Below, piece by piece: positions 1 to 5,045 of a DNA stretch of 29,829 nucleotides. How positions within the stretch are numbered: position 1 is the first letter of the stretch; each line of letters opens with the position of its first letter. Source of the stretch: a virus. The translations under genes were made by a program, and so were the position numbers. A model generated the notes under the pieces. The model saw only the letters and a program-made list of their open reading frames with translations. It was not told where the DNA came from and searched no databases. The stretch is from IMG/VR virus record IMGVR_UViG_3300021130_000013, positions 1 to 29,829 of that record; one strand, given 5' to 3'.

Positions 1-2934
1 GAAATTCTTGGTGCGATCCGAAATTGGCTGAAAACCAAAGGATTCATTGAATCATCCAAGCTCAACGACGCTGACATTGCCTACCTTCTGAGGAATCTCC
101 ATCGAGCGGCGCAGGGCCGTGGAGTGGCGAGGGCTGGAGAACCTGTCTTCAAGCGATCTGGCGATGGCTCGGATATCCGATTTGCCCGCAAGAATGTGCT
201 GGGTGATGAGCCTGCAGCCACATGGACGTCCCCAGGCGCAACGTCGCTGGATGACTTCATCTACCGGATGCAGGACAAGCTGATCGACACCAAGCGGGTA
301 CAGGAAGCGATCAAAGGCATCGAGGATGAATGGAATCCCTACCAGAAGGAAATGCTCTACCACGGTCGCGCCGCCAAGCAGACGGAAGACTTCCTGACCA
401 ATGAGGTCAAGCCGCTGGTAAAAGCCATGCAGGACAAGGGCGTCTCAATGGATGATCTTGAGACCTACCTTTGGAACCGTCATGCCCAGGAGCGAAACGA
501 GCAAATTGCCAAGATCAATCCCAAGATGCTCGATGGCGGATCCGGCATTCTGACGCAAGATGCTCAGGATTACCTGAAGGGTTTGTCACCCGAAAAGCAA
601 AAGGATCTTGAGGCGCTGGCAGGGCTGGTCGACAAGATCAACAGCAACACCAAGAAGATCCTGATCGATTCAGGTCTTGAAGTACCCGAAACGATCGCAG
701 CATGGGATGAGGCTTATAAGTTCTACGTCCCACTGATGCGTGGTGAGTCGGATATTTCTAACCGTGGCAACGGAACCGGACAGGGTTTCTCGGTCAGGGG
801 CCCAGCCAGCAAACGGGCCATGGGCTCAGATAAGCCGGTCGTGGATATCATTGCCAACATCCTGATGCAGCGCGAAAGGACGATCGTCCGCGCAGAAAAG
901 AACCGGGTCGGCGTGGCGCTTTATGGTCTCGCCATCCAGAACGAGAACCCGAACTTCTGGCTGCCGGTTAATCCCGAAGCAATTCGAGCGCCCAGACGCA
1001 CCCGGAACGAGCTTCAAATGATGGGGCTGCAGCCTGATGAGATCGATGGCTTGATGCGCGAACCGGCGACGCGGTATATCGATCAACAGACGGGCCTTGT
1101 GGCAGCCAGGATCAACCCGGCGCTCCGCAATAGGGACAATGTCCTTGCCGTGCGCGTCAACGGAAAAGATCGATTCATCTTCTTTAATACCGGGGATCCA
1201 AGAGCCGCTCGGATGGTTGAGTCGCTCAAGAACCTCGATTCTGATCAGCTGGGATCATTCCTGTCTGGGGTCCGCATGTTTACTCATACGTTCGCCTCGA
1301 TGAATACGCAATACAACCCGATCTTTGGCGTGGTGAACCTGCTGAGAGACTTGGGTGCGGGCGCGCTCAATCTCACGAGCACGGAAATTTCCGGTAAAGA
1401 AAAAGACGTCCTGGCTCATGTAGGGCCGGCGATTGTCGGGATCTATGCGGATCTTCGGGCTGACAGGGCAGGGCGACCCCGCTCGGCCGGCCAGTGGGCA
1501 AAGCTCTGGGAAGATTTCCAAGAACACGGAGGCAAGACGGGTTATCGCGATAATTACCGGACATCCGAAGATCGAGCCATAGCGATTCAGAGAATGCTGG
1601 ATCCTTCCTCATGGGCAGATCACGGTCTGGGTCGTTTCTTTACGGCAGACGGTCGCCTAAAAGTCCCGATGGAAATGGTCCGCAAAGCGGCATCCCCGCT
1701 GGTCACCCCGCTGTCGGGATGGCTGTCCGACTTCAATGAGACCACGGAAAACGCGATTCGCTTGTCAGCCTATAAGGTGGCCATCGATGCAGGGATCTCC
1801 ACCGACAAAGCCGCAGCGATCGCCAAGAACCTGACCGTCAACTTCAACAAGAAGGGTCAGCTGGCTTCCCAACTCGGGGCGCTCTATGCGTTCTTCAACG
1901 CCAACGCGCAGGGAACCGCGAGAATCCTTGAGACGCTGAATGGGCCTGCCGGTAAGAAAATCATTGCTGGCGGTCTTCTGGTGGGCGTTCTCCAGGCTGT
2001 GATGATGGCAGCAGCCGGGTATGACGATGATGAGCCGCCTCAGTTCACCCGCGAACGCAACTTCGTTATTCCGGTAGGCGACAACTACTTCTCGGTCCCT
2101 TATGCGCTGGGCTATCACGTTCTTCCGAACACCGGACGCATTCTGATGGAGCTTGTCCTGAGTGGCGGCAAACATGCAGGCGATAAGGTCTTTGACCTGA
2201 TGGCGGCCTATATCGAGTCCTTCAATCCAATGGGATCAGGCAAATCGATCTCTGAGGTGCTTTCTCCAACGATTACTGACCCGATCGTGGCGCTGGAGCG
2301 TAACACCGACGCATTTGGTCGGCCGATCGCCAAGCAGGATCGAAGCGGACTGGATCCGACACCCGGATTCACGCGGTCCAAGGATACGGCCAGCCTCTTT
2401 GGGAAGTGGTTTGCGAAAGTGATCAACACGCTTACCGGAGGGGATGACTACAAGCCTGGGCGCGTTTCTCCGACACCGGATCAGATCGATTACCTGATTG
2501 GTCAGGCAACGGGCGGCGTCGGTCGCGAAGCCATCAAAGCCGAGCAGGCGGTCGGTAGCTTGTTCACTGGCGAACAGCTGCCACCGTACAAGATCCCTCT
2601 GGCGGGTCGATTCTATGGAAACGCGCATTCCGCTTCAGCTGAACGCGATCGGTTCTACCGGAACGTAACTGAGCTCAACGTGACCCAGAACGAAATCGAA
2701 GGGCTCAAAAAGGCGCACAAACAGGATGAATTGAAGGCATTCAAGGAGTCGCACCCCGAATCCAAGCTGATCCGAAAAGCGGATGACGTCGAGCGGCGCC
2801 TTACCTTACTCAACGCCAGAAAACGATTCCTTCAGAGAAAGGGCGATTCAAAGGATGAGATCAAGAAGGTCGAAAGCCGGATCTCCGATCTGATGAAGGA
2901 TTTCAACGACCAGGTTAAGCAGGTAGCAAAATGA
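1..2934 (+). CDS. Large polyvalent virion/ejection protein, C-terminal part (LPD38-like); 5' end outside window
   Basis: The reading frame is open from base 1, so this is the last 977 residues of a larger protein. A GTG at 124 is not needed as a start because the frame continues upstream. The visible part is mostly alpha-helical. It has one hydrophobic stretch (IIAGGLLVGVLQAVMMAAAG, near 1960-2020), then motifs typical of the LPD38 module of phage polyvalent proteins: FNPMGSG, SPTITDP, FGRPI and, near 2595, PLAGRFYG. The C-terminus is a charged coiled coil. Known of the family: such giant proteins are packaged in short-tailed phages and enter the cell with the DNA; their N-termini often carry proteases or other effectors, which cannot be seen here. 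It is the penultimate gene of the late operon and overlaps the next gene by four bases. The family call rests on motif memory, not a profile search. Confidence 0.75.
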   Translation, partial: EILGAIRNWLKTKGFIESSKLNDADIAYLLRNLHRAAQGRGVARAGEPVFKRSGDGSDIRFARKNVLGDEPAATWTSPGATSLDDFIYRMQDKLIDTKRVQEAIKGIEDEWNPYQKEMLYHGRAAKQTEDFLTNEVKPLVKAMQDKGVSMDDLETYLWNRHAQERNEQIAKINPKMLDGGSGILTQDAQDYLKGLSPEKQKDLEALAGLVDKINSNTKKILIDSGLEVPETIAAWDEAYKFYVPLMRGESDISNRGNGTGQGFSVRGPASKRAMGSDKPVVDIIANILMQRERTIVRAEKNRVGVALYGLAIQNENPNFWLPVNPEAIRAPRRTRNELQMMGLQPDEIDGLMREPATRYIDQQTGLVAARINPALRNRDNVLAVRVNGKDRFIFFNTGDPRAARMVESLKNLDSDQLGSFLSGVRMFTHTFASMNTQYNPIFGVVNLLRDLGAGALNLTSTEISGKEKDVLAHVGPAIVGIYADLRADRAGRPRSAGQWAKLWEDFQEHGGKTGYRDNYRTSEDRAIAIQRMLDPSSWADHGLGRFFTADGRLKVPMEMVRKAASPLVTPLSGWLSDFNETTENAIRLSAYKVAIDAGISTDKAAAIAKNLTVNFNKKGQLASQLGALYAFFNANAQGTARILETLNGPAGKKIIAGGLLVGVLQAVMMAAAGYDDDEPPQFTRERNFVIPVGDNYFSVPYALGYHVLPNTGRILMELVLSGGKHAGDKVFDLMAAYIESFNPMGSGKSISEVLSPTITDPIVALERNTDAFGRPIAKQDRSGLDPTPGFTRSKDTASLFGKWFAKVINTLTGGDDYKPGRVSPTPDQIDYLIGQATGGVGREAIKAEQAVGSLFTGEQLPPYKIPLAGRFYGNAHSASAERDRFYRNVTELNVTQNEIEGLKKAHKQDELKAFKESHPESKLIRKADDVERRLTLLNARKRFLQRKGDSKDEIKKVESRISDLMKDFNDQVKQVAK

Positions 2935-3386
2935 TTGATCAGCTGAACAAGCATCTTCCCCTCGAAATCAGCGCCAATGTCCGCTATGCGGGACAGGCTC
3001 AGATTCTGAAGTTTCGCGGCTATGAAAAGCTGGCCAAACGATATGAAGAATCGGCAAAGGAAGAGCGCGGACACGCGAATCGAGTGATTCGGAGGATTCA
3101 GCAGCTGGGAGGCTGGCCTGATTACATCCCGCAACTGCCCGTTAAGGCGCAATCCAGCTGGGACGTGAAAGCCATGTTTGAGGCGGACCTTGCCACCGAG
3201 ACCCGCGTTCTTCGTAGTCTTACGGACCTCATGCAAACCGCTGACGAAGATGAACAGGACTGGCAGACGTTCAAGGTGCTGCAGAAACTCACCAATGACA
3301 CCGAAGACGATATCGAATGGTATACCGCCCAGCTCGGCATCATTGATGAGATTGGGCTGCAGAACTATCTAGCGGCTCAGATTTAA
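2931..3386 (+). CDS. Bacterioferritin-like protein with altered diiron site
   Basis: A 151-residue four-helix protein that aligns end to end with bacterioferritin, including the C-terminal IGLQNYLAAQI (IGLQNYL-type ending of Bfr). With an offset of about six residues, the E. coli Bfr ligands E18, E51, H54 and E94 correspond to E12, E45, H48 and E90, and Y25 to Y19. E127 and H130 correspond to T124 and D127, and the haem-ligand methionine M52 is R46. Half of one iron site is therefore changed and haem binding is unlikely. The start is an ATG overlapping the previous stop (ATGA), so it is coupled to the giant virion protein. Its stop overlaps the stop of the convergent gene. In the family the role is iron oxidation and storage; the phage role is unknown, possibly iron handling, protection or a structural use of the fold. 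Confidence 0.85.
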   Translation: MIDQLNKHLPLEISANVRYAGQAQILKFRGYEKLAKRYEESAKEERGHANRVIRRIQQLGGWPDYIPQLPVKAQSSWDVKAMFEADLATETRVLRSLTDLMQTADEDEQDWQTFKVLQKLTNDTEDDIEWYTAQLGIIDEIGLQNYLAAQI

Positions 3387-3673
3387 TAGTCGTCATCCCA
3401 AAATCCGTCTCCCTCCATCTTGATCGCCGGCTCTGACCAGTCTCTGGCATGAGAGGAGGGGAGGGTCGGGATCCATTCATTACCCTGTCGGTAGTAACCG
3501 CCACGGCTCAAATCGCGCGCGCTCAGATTGGGCAGCGTGTAATACGCCTCATTGCCTCGGACCACTAAGGCCTCAGCGCCGGGATCTGGAACATCGGTTC
3601 CGGGAATGGTGGGAACGTAGCGGACGGCATGTGCGTCAGCAGCAAATAGAAGAGCCAAAAATAGCGCTTTCAT
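3383..3673 (-). CDS. Small exported protein next to attP, function unknown
   Basis: Encodes 96 residues. The N-terminus MKALFLALLFAADAHA is a typical Sec signal peptide (Lys, hydrophobic core, AHA cleavage site before VRYVP). There is no cysteine after it, so it is not a lipoprotein. The mature part is about 80 residues, rich in Pro, Tyr, Trp and Asp, with an acidic end (DGFWDDDY). A ribosome site CGAGG lies seven bases before the ATG. The gene points away from int and is separated from it only by attP, so after integration it would sit at the far prophage end, a common place for genes expressed in the lysogen. I do not recognise the family. A periplasmic role such as blocking entry of other phages is possible but is inference only. 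Confidence 0.65.
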   Translation of the reverse strand: MKALFLALLFAADAHAVRYVPTIPGTDVPDPGAEALVVRGNEAYYTLPNLSARDLSRGGYYRQGNEWIPTLPSSHARDWSEPAIKMEGDGFWDDDY

Positions 3674-3683
3674 TCAAAACCTC

Positions 3684-3912
3684 GATGTCATAGTTTGATG
3701 TCATAGAAGTCTGGAAGCCTTTGTTTACGCGGCCTCCGGAGCGGTCGATTCCCTTAGGAGGGGAATGCTCTATCCAGCTGAGCTACCGGGGCGTATGGGT
3801 TTCACTGACTTTCTATGTCTCTACTATGACGCATATCGCGCATTTCGTCCACATAAAGAACAATGACTTAGCGGCGCAATCATAGCCGGTGTCATAGTGG
3901 ATGTCATAGAAG
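3684..3912. other. attP: attP: tRNA-derived core flanked by paired integrase arm sites
   Basis: A core-like inverted repeat ATTCCC-7-GGGAAT (3748-3766) coincides with a tRNA anticodon stem-loop, giving a 7-base spacer that suits the overlap region of a tyrosine recombinase. On each side lie two copies of a GTCATAG element: GATGTCATAG at 3684-3693 and GATGTCATAGAAG at 3697-3709 on the left; GTGTCATAG at 3889-3897 and GATGTCATAGAAG at 3900-3912 on the right. The 13-base versions are identical. A reversed CTATGAC occurs at 3824-3830. This matches the P arm, core, P' arm plan of phage attP sites. The int stop codon (3904-3906) lies inside the right arm site. The function is inferred from layout, from the adjacent int gene and from tRNA identity. 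Confidence 0.8.
3748..3792 (-). tRNA. 5' half of a tRNA-Arg(CCU) gene (truncated, part of attP)
   Basis: Read on the minus strand it contains acceptor GCCCCGG, TA, D arm GCTC-AGCTGGATA-GAGC, A, and anticodon stem TTCCC with loop CTCCTAA (anticodon CCT) and GGGAA. After this the sequence diverges: no T stem-loop and no CCGGGGC partner for the acceptor follow. It is 45 bases of tRNA identity, not a functional tRNA by itself. Most tRNA-targeting phages carry the 3' part of the gene; this one carries the 5' part. Confidence 0.8.
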
Positions 3913-4893
3913 GCCGAGCTTACCGATCGCGCCGACAAGGTTCTCTGGCGCAAGGTGCGCGTACCTTTCCGTCGACTTGATGGAAGCGTGGCCAAGTATA
4001 TCCCGAACCTCGTAGAGAGGGACACCCGCCATGACCAACCATGACGCGCAGGTATGCCTAAGATCATGCGGAGTGAAGTCCAAGATTCCAGCTCTGCGAC
4101 AAGCTCCGGCAAACCCCTTTTTCAAACTTCCTATGACACCTGACTTCCCCGGAAAGACATAGGGACTTTTCGGGTCTCGGTCTTTACAGCTGAGAAATGC
4201 CAGTTTTGCAACCGGGTGGATGGGAATCGTGATGGTGCGCTTCCGCTTGGTGCGGTTGCTAGTCACCTCAATAATGATGCGATCTCGCTCAAGATCGACC
4301 TTTTTCCAATCAAGCGTGAGAATGTCGCGTGTGCGAAGCCCGGTGTAAATCCCGATCTTTATGAAATCGGCAACGACTGGCGATGCGTTTTGAATAAGGC
4401 GAGAGGCCTCTTCTTTGGTGATCCACCTGACGCGACCAGGAGGTTCTTCCACCTTAACTGACCGAACCTCATTCGGGATGCTGGTCCCAAATCGGCTGTT
4501 GTATTCAACGATGGCGGCGCTGAGAACCGTGAGCTCTCGCTTGATGGTTGGATCCTCGACGCCAGCTTCGCGTCGGTGATCTATGTATCCGTGGATTTCG
4601 GTTGAATCGACGCTTGCGGCATCGATACCCGCGAAGTAACTGTCCAGCGCTCTCCCTATGGATATGTTTCTAGGGACGAGCCGATTATTGCGCTTCAGGT
4701 ATTCCGCTAAAACGTCAGCTACTTCTGCGCCTCCTGAGCGGCGTTTGAAGGTGTGGAAGGCTGATCTAAGCTTTTGCTCTTCCGCTTTCGCGTCCGCGTG
4801 GACGGTGGTCCCAGAAGATCGCCTAATGCGTTTGCCCGTCGCATCGGTGTACGAGATCCACCAGATCGAACTGTCTTTTTGCTTGTACGGCAT
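3904..4893 (-). CDS. int: Tyrosine-family site-specific integrase
   Basis: A 329-residue protein of usual phage integrase length. The N-terminal arm-binding and SAM-like core-binding regions (about 1-150) are followed by the catalytic domain with Arg187 (in GLRTRDIL), His276 and Arg279 (HDLRHT), His302 (LGHAS) and the nucleophile Tyr311 (STERYAH). All expected catalytic residues are present. It would join attP to the host tRNA-Arg(CCU) gene and, with the upstream Xis-like protein, reverse this. It is the last gene of the leftward operon and ends inside an attP arm site. The ATG at 4893 lacks a good ribosome site and lies inside the upstream HTH gene (175-base overlap in another frame), so translation is probably coupled. 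Confidence 0.95.
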   Translation of the reverse strand: MPYKQKDSSIWWISYTDATGKRIRRSSGTTVHADAKAEEQKLRSAFHTFKRRSGGAEVADVLAEYLKRNNRLVPRNISIGRALDSYFAGIDAASVDSTEIHGYIDHRREAGVEDPTIKRELTVLSAAIVEYNSRFGTSIPNEVRSVKVEEPPGRVRWITKEEASRLIQNASPVVADFIKIGIYTGLRTRDILTLDWKKVDLERDRIIIEVTSNRTKRKRTITIPIHPVAKLAFLSCKDRDPKSPYVFPGKSGVIGSLKKGFAGACRRAGILDFTPHDLRHTCASWLVMAGVPLYEVRDILGHASIKSTERYAHLAPENLVGAIGKLGLL

Positions 4894-5045
4894 CCGGAAA
4901 GTATGAACTCATCCAGTACCTTTTCGTCAATCCGAATCACTTTCCCCACTTGAAACGCAGGCAGCTCACCACTCGAAACCCAGACCTGAACAGTCCTGGT
5001 GCTGACATTTAACCTGTCCGCGACATCCTTTGTCGTGAGCATCAT
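4719..5045 (-). CDS. HTH excisionase-like protein overlapping int
   Basis: A 108-residue protein. Residues 1-50 form a MerR/excisionase-type winged helix (MLTTKDVADRLNVS, TVQVWVSSGELPAFQVGK, IRIDEKVLDEFIL), a fold used by phage Xis proteins to bend att DNA and by DNA-modification accessory factors. Residues 52-108 are basic and low in complexity (RTRKRKSKS, ending NAAQEAQK) and are encoded over the start of int in another frame, so part of this tail may be a by-product of the overlap. The start ATGATG at 5045 overlaps the stop of the upstream gene (ATGA). Its place directly before int supports a directionality-factor role; a small transcription regulator is the alternative. Confidence 0.75.
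   Translation of the reverse strand: MMLTTKDVADRLNVSTRTVQVWVSSGELPAFQVGKVIRIDEKVLDEFILSGCRTSKKTVRSGGSRTPMRRANALGDLLGPPSTRTRKRKSKSLDQPSTPSNAAQEAQK

Follow-up and report, generated by a model that had tools for sequence, protein, structure and literature searches.

The virus contig analysed here, a stretch of 29,829 nucleotides referred to as the window, carries what looks like one half of a tRNA gene just downstream of an integrase gene. This raises the question of whether the locus at positions 3684-3912 is an attachment site through which a prophage would supply its host with the 5' half of a tRNA-Arg. The window phage is temperate, with a lambda-like gene order and a P22-like portal; genes recognized with Pfam and PHROG include those for the portal, a terminase, a lambda-type repressor, and RecE/RecT/NinB-like proteins. 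The tyrosine integrase encoded by int (3904..4893, minus strand; 329 amino acids) matches Pfam family PF00589 (E = 6e-29) and is 40.5% identical to the integrase of Pseudomonas phage D3 over 99% of the sequence. The start of int is overlapped by a gene for an excisionase-like HTH protein (4719..5045, minus strand; HTH_17, 9e-15; PHROG excisionase families, 4e-9), and a similar xis/int overlap is found in D3. A 59-kb phage contig, referred to as L002, is nearly identical to the window (mostly 95 to 99% across matching stretches). Elsewhere in the window, we noticed a gene for a 936-amino-acid protein with the large polyvalent protein domain LPD38 (124-2934, plus strand).

Half a tRNA-Arg(CCT) gene downstream of int

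The tRNA-like stretch is 44 nt in length (GCCCCGGTAGCTCAGCTGGATAGAGCATTCCCCTCCTAAGGGAA; 3792 to 3749, minus strand), begins 111 nt after the int stop codon, and runs in the sense of int. The Rfam tRNA model gave a score of 24.8 bits, short of its gathering score (29), and the T arm was absent. Alignment of the 44 nt to host tRNAs gave a best score of 80, compared with a maximum of 36 in 500 shuffles. Rfam and the host tRNA alignments agree that the identity covers the acceptor 5' strand, the D arm, and the anticodon stem-loop and that it ends past the anticodon stem, as had been claimed in the original prediction. An exact match of 37 nt was found within an intact bacterial tRNA-Arg(cct) in genome G099, the acceptor stem of which differs, and intact tRNA-Arg(cct) genes of other genomes had 1 to 2 mismatches, with 2 mismatches over the full 44 nt in G003 and G096. 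The stretch represents a gammaproteobacterial-type tRNA-Arg(CCT) cut down to its 5' half. No complete tRNA gene was detected in the window with ARAGORN, and no complete tRNA above the cutoff was found in L002. Past the tRNA half, in the sense of int, lie an unrelated stretch, two further repeats, and then a 96-amino-acid open reading frame (ORF) (3673-3383). In the opposite direction, the sequence upstream of the tRNA start was not similar to the flanks of the proxy-host genes (p = 0.21); in the true host, identity might continue past the tRNA start and take in a host promoter captured by the phage.

Core, arms, and neighbors of the presumed attP

The anticodon stem-loop (3748..3766, minus strand) is the presumed crossover core. 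As originally described, the 7-nt sequence CTCCTAA is enclosed here by a 6-bp inverted repeat, ATTCCC/GGGAAT, and the same overlap, likewise with inverted-repeat flanks, is present in a related phage contig, L003. Four copies of the sequence CTATGACAYC form two doublets in the same orientation, one on each side of the tRNA half. These are a P-arm doublet (CTATGACATC..CTATGACACC; 3888..3909, minus strand), with a similar doublet in L003, and a P'-arm doublet (CTATGACATC..CTATGACATC; 3684..3706, minus strand), both of which are putative integrase arm-type sites. The repeats at 3684-3709 and 3888-3912 were confirmed as real. An inverted arm-like element (TGCGTCATAG; 3824..3833) lies between the P arm and the core and is also present in L003 and in a further relative, L004.

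In the whole viral collection, the spaced doublet was found elsewhere only in the L002 contig, where it occurs twice and flanks the same core. The same phage genes continue on both sides of this site in L002, and hence, the site is the phage's own attP and not the end of a prophage. What is expected of a tRNA-gene attP of a tyrosine-integrase phage was found here at the sequence level: an adjacent tyrosine integrase gene, arm-type repeats on either side of a core that is itself flanked by inverted repeats, and identity from the core to the tRNA end, in this case 44 nt reaching the 5' end. Region 3684-3912 is, on these features, a compact attP with putative arms on both sides of the core, and the central claim of the original prediction, an attP carrying a tRNA 5' half, is borne out by the tRNA half, the paired repeats, the adjacent int gene, and the occurrence of the same site in L002.

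A promoter-like sequence, ATGACA-17-TATGAT (3879..3907, minus strand), reads toward the tRNA half and overlaps the P-arm repeats and the end of int. It matches the consensus at 10 of 12 positions; a site this good had a p value of 0.016 in shuffles, and a score of 10 was attained by only 1 of 448 equal-length stretches of the window. L003, in a single comparison, has no -10 box at the aligned place and would not need a promoter there. On the basis of the consensus match only, the phage may bring a candidate promoter for the rebuilt tRNA.

The first gene beyond P' is the 96-amino-acid ORF (3383..3673, minus strand), which is also present in L002 and has a signal-peptide-like start and a GAGG ribosome-binding site. 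This ORF had no Pfam, PHROG, or phage match, and a promoter-like match of its own was absent from the scanned stretch. Its product begins with MKALFLALLFAADAHA, like a small exported protein, and the product of the first gene past P' in L004 (from about 2200, plus strand), which begins with MKTMLLACLLMLPATGFG, is likewise small-exported-protein-like. Also near attP, the window encodes a ferritin-like or rubrerythrin-like protein (2931-3386, plus strand; Pfam Ferritin, 3e-24) that is kept in L002 and had no PHROG match.

A polarity switch among close relatives

The original prediction held that most tRNA-targeting phages carry the 3' half, and this agrees with the Islander collection, in which 3,760 islands have a 3' tDNA fragment and 159 of 3,919 have a 5' fragment (PMC4383910). 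The same preference is seen among the wider relatives of the window integrase. Where an intact tRNA gene lies within 500 nt downstream of int, it is antisense in 41 cases and sense in 2, one of which is a phage-borne tRNA. An antisense tRNA after int is the arrangement to be expected of phages that contribute the 3' half.

In the integrase tree, the window, L003, and L004 form one clade with 100% support, and the two closest relatives carry the opposite half. In L003 (53% integrase identity), similarly arranged arms accompany a tRNA-Arg(CCT) 3' half that lies on the far (P') side in the sense of int. In L004 (57 to 59%), the arms, again similarly arranged, surround a tRNA-Arg(CCG) 3' half that is antisense, on the int side, and about 1.1 kb after int. 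Since both carry 3' halves, and given the 41-to-2 excess of antisense tRNAs, the polarity of the window is the exception and, by sequence comparison, changed within this close clade. As the anticodon stem is nearly palindromic, the tRNA would be able to face either way between the arms. L004 has an antisense tRNA with its 3' half on the P side; in the window, the tRNA is in the sense orientation with the homology still on the P side, so that the 5' half is carried. We infer that such a flip of the tRNA within conserved arms is the likely origin of the window arrangement.

Among these three related phages, which share one arm layout, tRNA-Arg halves occur in three arrangements (5' half, sense, int side; 3' half, antisense, int side; and 3' half, sense, far side), and the change of polarity in so close a group is the most useful outcome of the analysis. 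With a single integrase family, it becomes testable why integrating elements nearly always restore the tRNA 3' half. It also raises the question of whether loss of the host promoter has a cost and whether the phage pays it with a promoter of its own.

A search of the viral collection for this core continuing into a tRNA 3' half yielded one contig only (148,180 bases). Two phage contigs, L012 and L121, in which int is followed by a sense tRNA-Val, were considered as an integrated 5'-half case and rejected: both sides of the tRNA are conserved phage DNA, and hence, the tRNA is phage borne. The complete tRNA-Val(CAC) lies inside an open frame just past int (L012, 5936-6493; L121, about 3400-3500), and by eye, this frame runs on into a protein that looks to be of the T5orf172/GIY-YIG type. 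In L100 (2647-3540), from an Aeromicrobium metagenome-assembled genome with 25% identity, int is followed by a sense tRNA-Met; a contig end hides the other junction, and L100 is a possible second 5'-half case.

Expected integration, alternatives, and known systems

The stretch of identity with the host is found on the int (P) side and has the same orientation as int, and so it is the tRNA 5' half that the phage would supply. Recombination by a D3-type tyrosine integrase would take place between the core (overlap CTCCTAA) and its identical counterpart in the host tRNA-Arg(CCT) gene, with the crossover falling within the 7-nt loop. The int-side junction would then consist of int, the promoter-like site, the phage 5' half, and the host 3' half, forming an intact tRNA, and the other junction would consist of the host promoter, the host 5' half, P', and the phage 96-amino-acid ORF. 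When the phage sequence was joined via the core to the 3' halves of four proxy hosts, ARAGORN called a tRNA-Arg(cct), and it called no tRNA in the reciprocal join. An intact tRNA at the int-side junction would place the tRNA after int and in the same direction (the SIT arrangement), directly downstream of int as had been foreseen. The rebuilt tRNA would lose its host promoter and depend on the phage promoter or on read-through from int, and downstream of the host tRNA promoter there would now be the 5' fragment, P', and the ORF. We regard this scheme as a whole, that is, an attP used by a D3-type integrase with the phage supplying the tRNA-Arg(CCT) 5' half, as very probable. A more far-reaching reading is a reciprocal promoter exchange that arose by the flip of the tRNA within a conserved attP, whereby in the lysogen the tRNA receives a phage promoter and the predicted exported protein of 96 amino acids receives the host tRNA promoter. 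In such an exchange, the promoter lies inside the integrase arm sites and would be open to Int/Xis control; we consider the exchange reading as a whole rather doubtful. Control of rare-codon decoding by the prophage state had also been proposed, and we found no support for it beyond the identity of the tRNA, with AGG making up 29 of 339 Arg codons in 15 ORFs. The original interpretation is thus supported in part: the attP with a 5' half, the place of a rebuilt tRNA after int, and the 3'-half norm are supported, integration at this site and loss of the host promoter are predictions, and rare-codon control has no positive evidence.

The same observations bear on several other explanations. The locus could be a decayed phage tRNA gene that lacks a T arm and plays no part in integration. 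Rfam aligns the whole tRNA model, a CCGGAGGC stretch can pair, with one bulge, with the acceptor strand, and the bases after the core weakly resemble tRNA 3' halves (p of about 0.04 with 25 to 30 nt). However, this resemblance is not significant when 40 nt are compared (p = 0.15), on which ground we also rejected the idea that a tRNA 3'-half relic follows the core. The 5' half shows no mutations as far as the anticodon stem, and the site is flanked by paired arm repeats immediately downstream of int, a place occupied by tRNA 3' halves in relatives. Decay is thus quite improbable. The suggestion that the locus is the attL or attR junction of a prophage with host DNA has in its favor that tRNA fragments mark prophage ends too, but the arm repeats on both sides and the L002 comparison described above leave it hardly credible. 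An equally slight probability attaches to a tRNA half that is kept as a transcript acting as a tRNA fragment or decoy and not for integration: it could be transcribed from the int side, but positive evidence is lacking, and both location and arms point to an att site.

Integration could also proceed through a short functional core, destroying the host tRNA, with a phage tRNA complementing the loss, and such tRNA-dependent lysogeny has a precedent in mycobacteriophages that integrate at tRNA genes (PMC10865867). As in those phages, the tRNA supply of a lysogen would be tied to phage transcription. In them, however, the tRNA gene is destroyed and a complete phage tRNA takes its place (PMC10865867), whereas homology over 44 nt up to the tRNA 5' end indicates that the tRNA would be rebuilt here, and no complete tRNA gene of the same isotype is present in the window or in its 59-kb relative. 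We therefore judge this explanation to be very unlikely, somewhat more so than decay.

The preferred reading, an attP supplying a tRNA 5' half, can be set against several known systems. The window resembles phage D3 in its homologous integrase, the overlapping excisionase gene, attP right after int, and the anticodon-loop core, and by sequence relation and the xis/int/attP order, it belongs with the D3-type integrases. It differs in polarity, as the annotated attP of D3 has the usual tRNA 3' half antisense to int (tRNA-Leu by eye), and the window has a 5' half in the sense orientation. The argW gene of Escherichia coli encodes tRNA-Arg(CCU), and P22-like phages are among those that integrate there. 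KplE1 and the P22-like phages at argW share this target with the window, but int precedes the tRNA in the window (SIT), whereas in KplE1 the tRNA comes before int (STI) and the overlap, a 16-nt core, is limited to the tRNA 3' end (PMC2951348). The SIT and OD arrangements together account for less than 8% of 1,273 int-tRNA pairs (PMC2951348).

A parallel in outcome is pTN3 of the Thermococcales, for which Cossu et al. report that 41 bp, from a tRNA-Leu 5' half, are common to attP and attB and that the rebuilt tRNA is separated from its original promoter; according to a review of archaeal recombinases, pTN3-like attB sites are tRNA 5' halves, the rebuilt tRNA is expressed from the integrase promoter, and such cases are rarely encountered in bacteria (PMC5495485, PMC8371274). 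pTN3 is an archaeal, unrelated element, and its attP lies inside int, which is split upon integration, whereas the attP of the window follows the int stop (3904), with the tRNA half at 3792-3749. Like the window, the Islander 5'-fragment islands have an element with the 5' part of a tRNA, and class A crossover, at the anticodon site, is frequent among the Islander entries; those islands are integrated, however, while the window site has been seen only as an attP in free phage contigs. Since Islander 5' fragments and pTN3 have already been described, this kind of arrangement is known, and the window appears to be a further case of a rare kind, for which the promoter loss proposed in the original prediction would match pTN3. 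What is added here is a phage case in which the arms are mapped by comparison, together with a candidate promoter and a comparison with near relatives whose polarity is reversed.

To look for hosts, about 1,000 sampled proteobacterial genomes (draws overlapping) were searched with the exact 37-mer or 44-mer and for near matches. None had the exact 44-mer, and the matches are proxies only. No attB, attL, attR, or lysogen was found in these genomes or in a genome contig scan, which revealed no integrase with more than 41% identity at full length, and no displaced 5' fragment upstream of an intact tRNA was found in the genomes sampled. The comparison of host genomes suggested in the original prediction hence yielded proxy tRNA-Arg(cct) matches in G099, G003, and G096, but no related prophage with its attL and attR. 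We also noticed that the record of Vibrio phage Kuja carries a tRNA-Arg.
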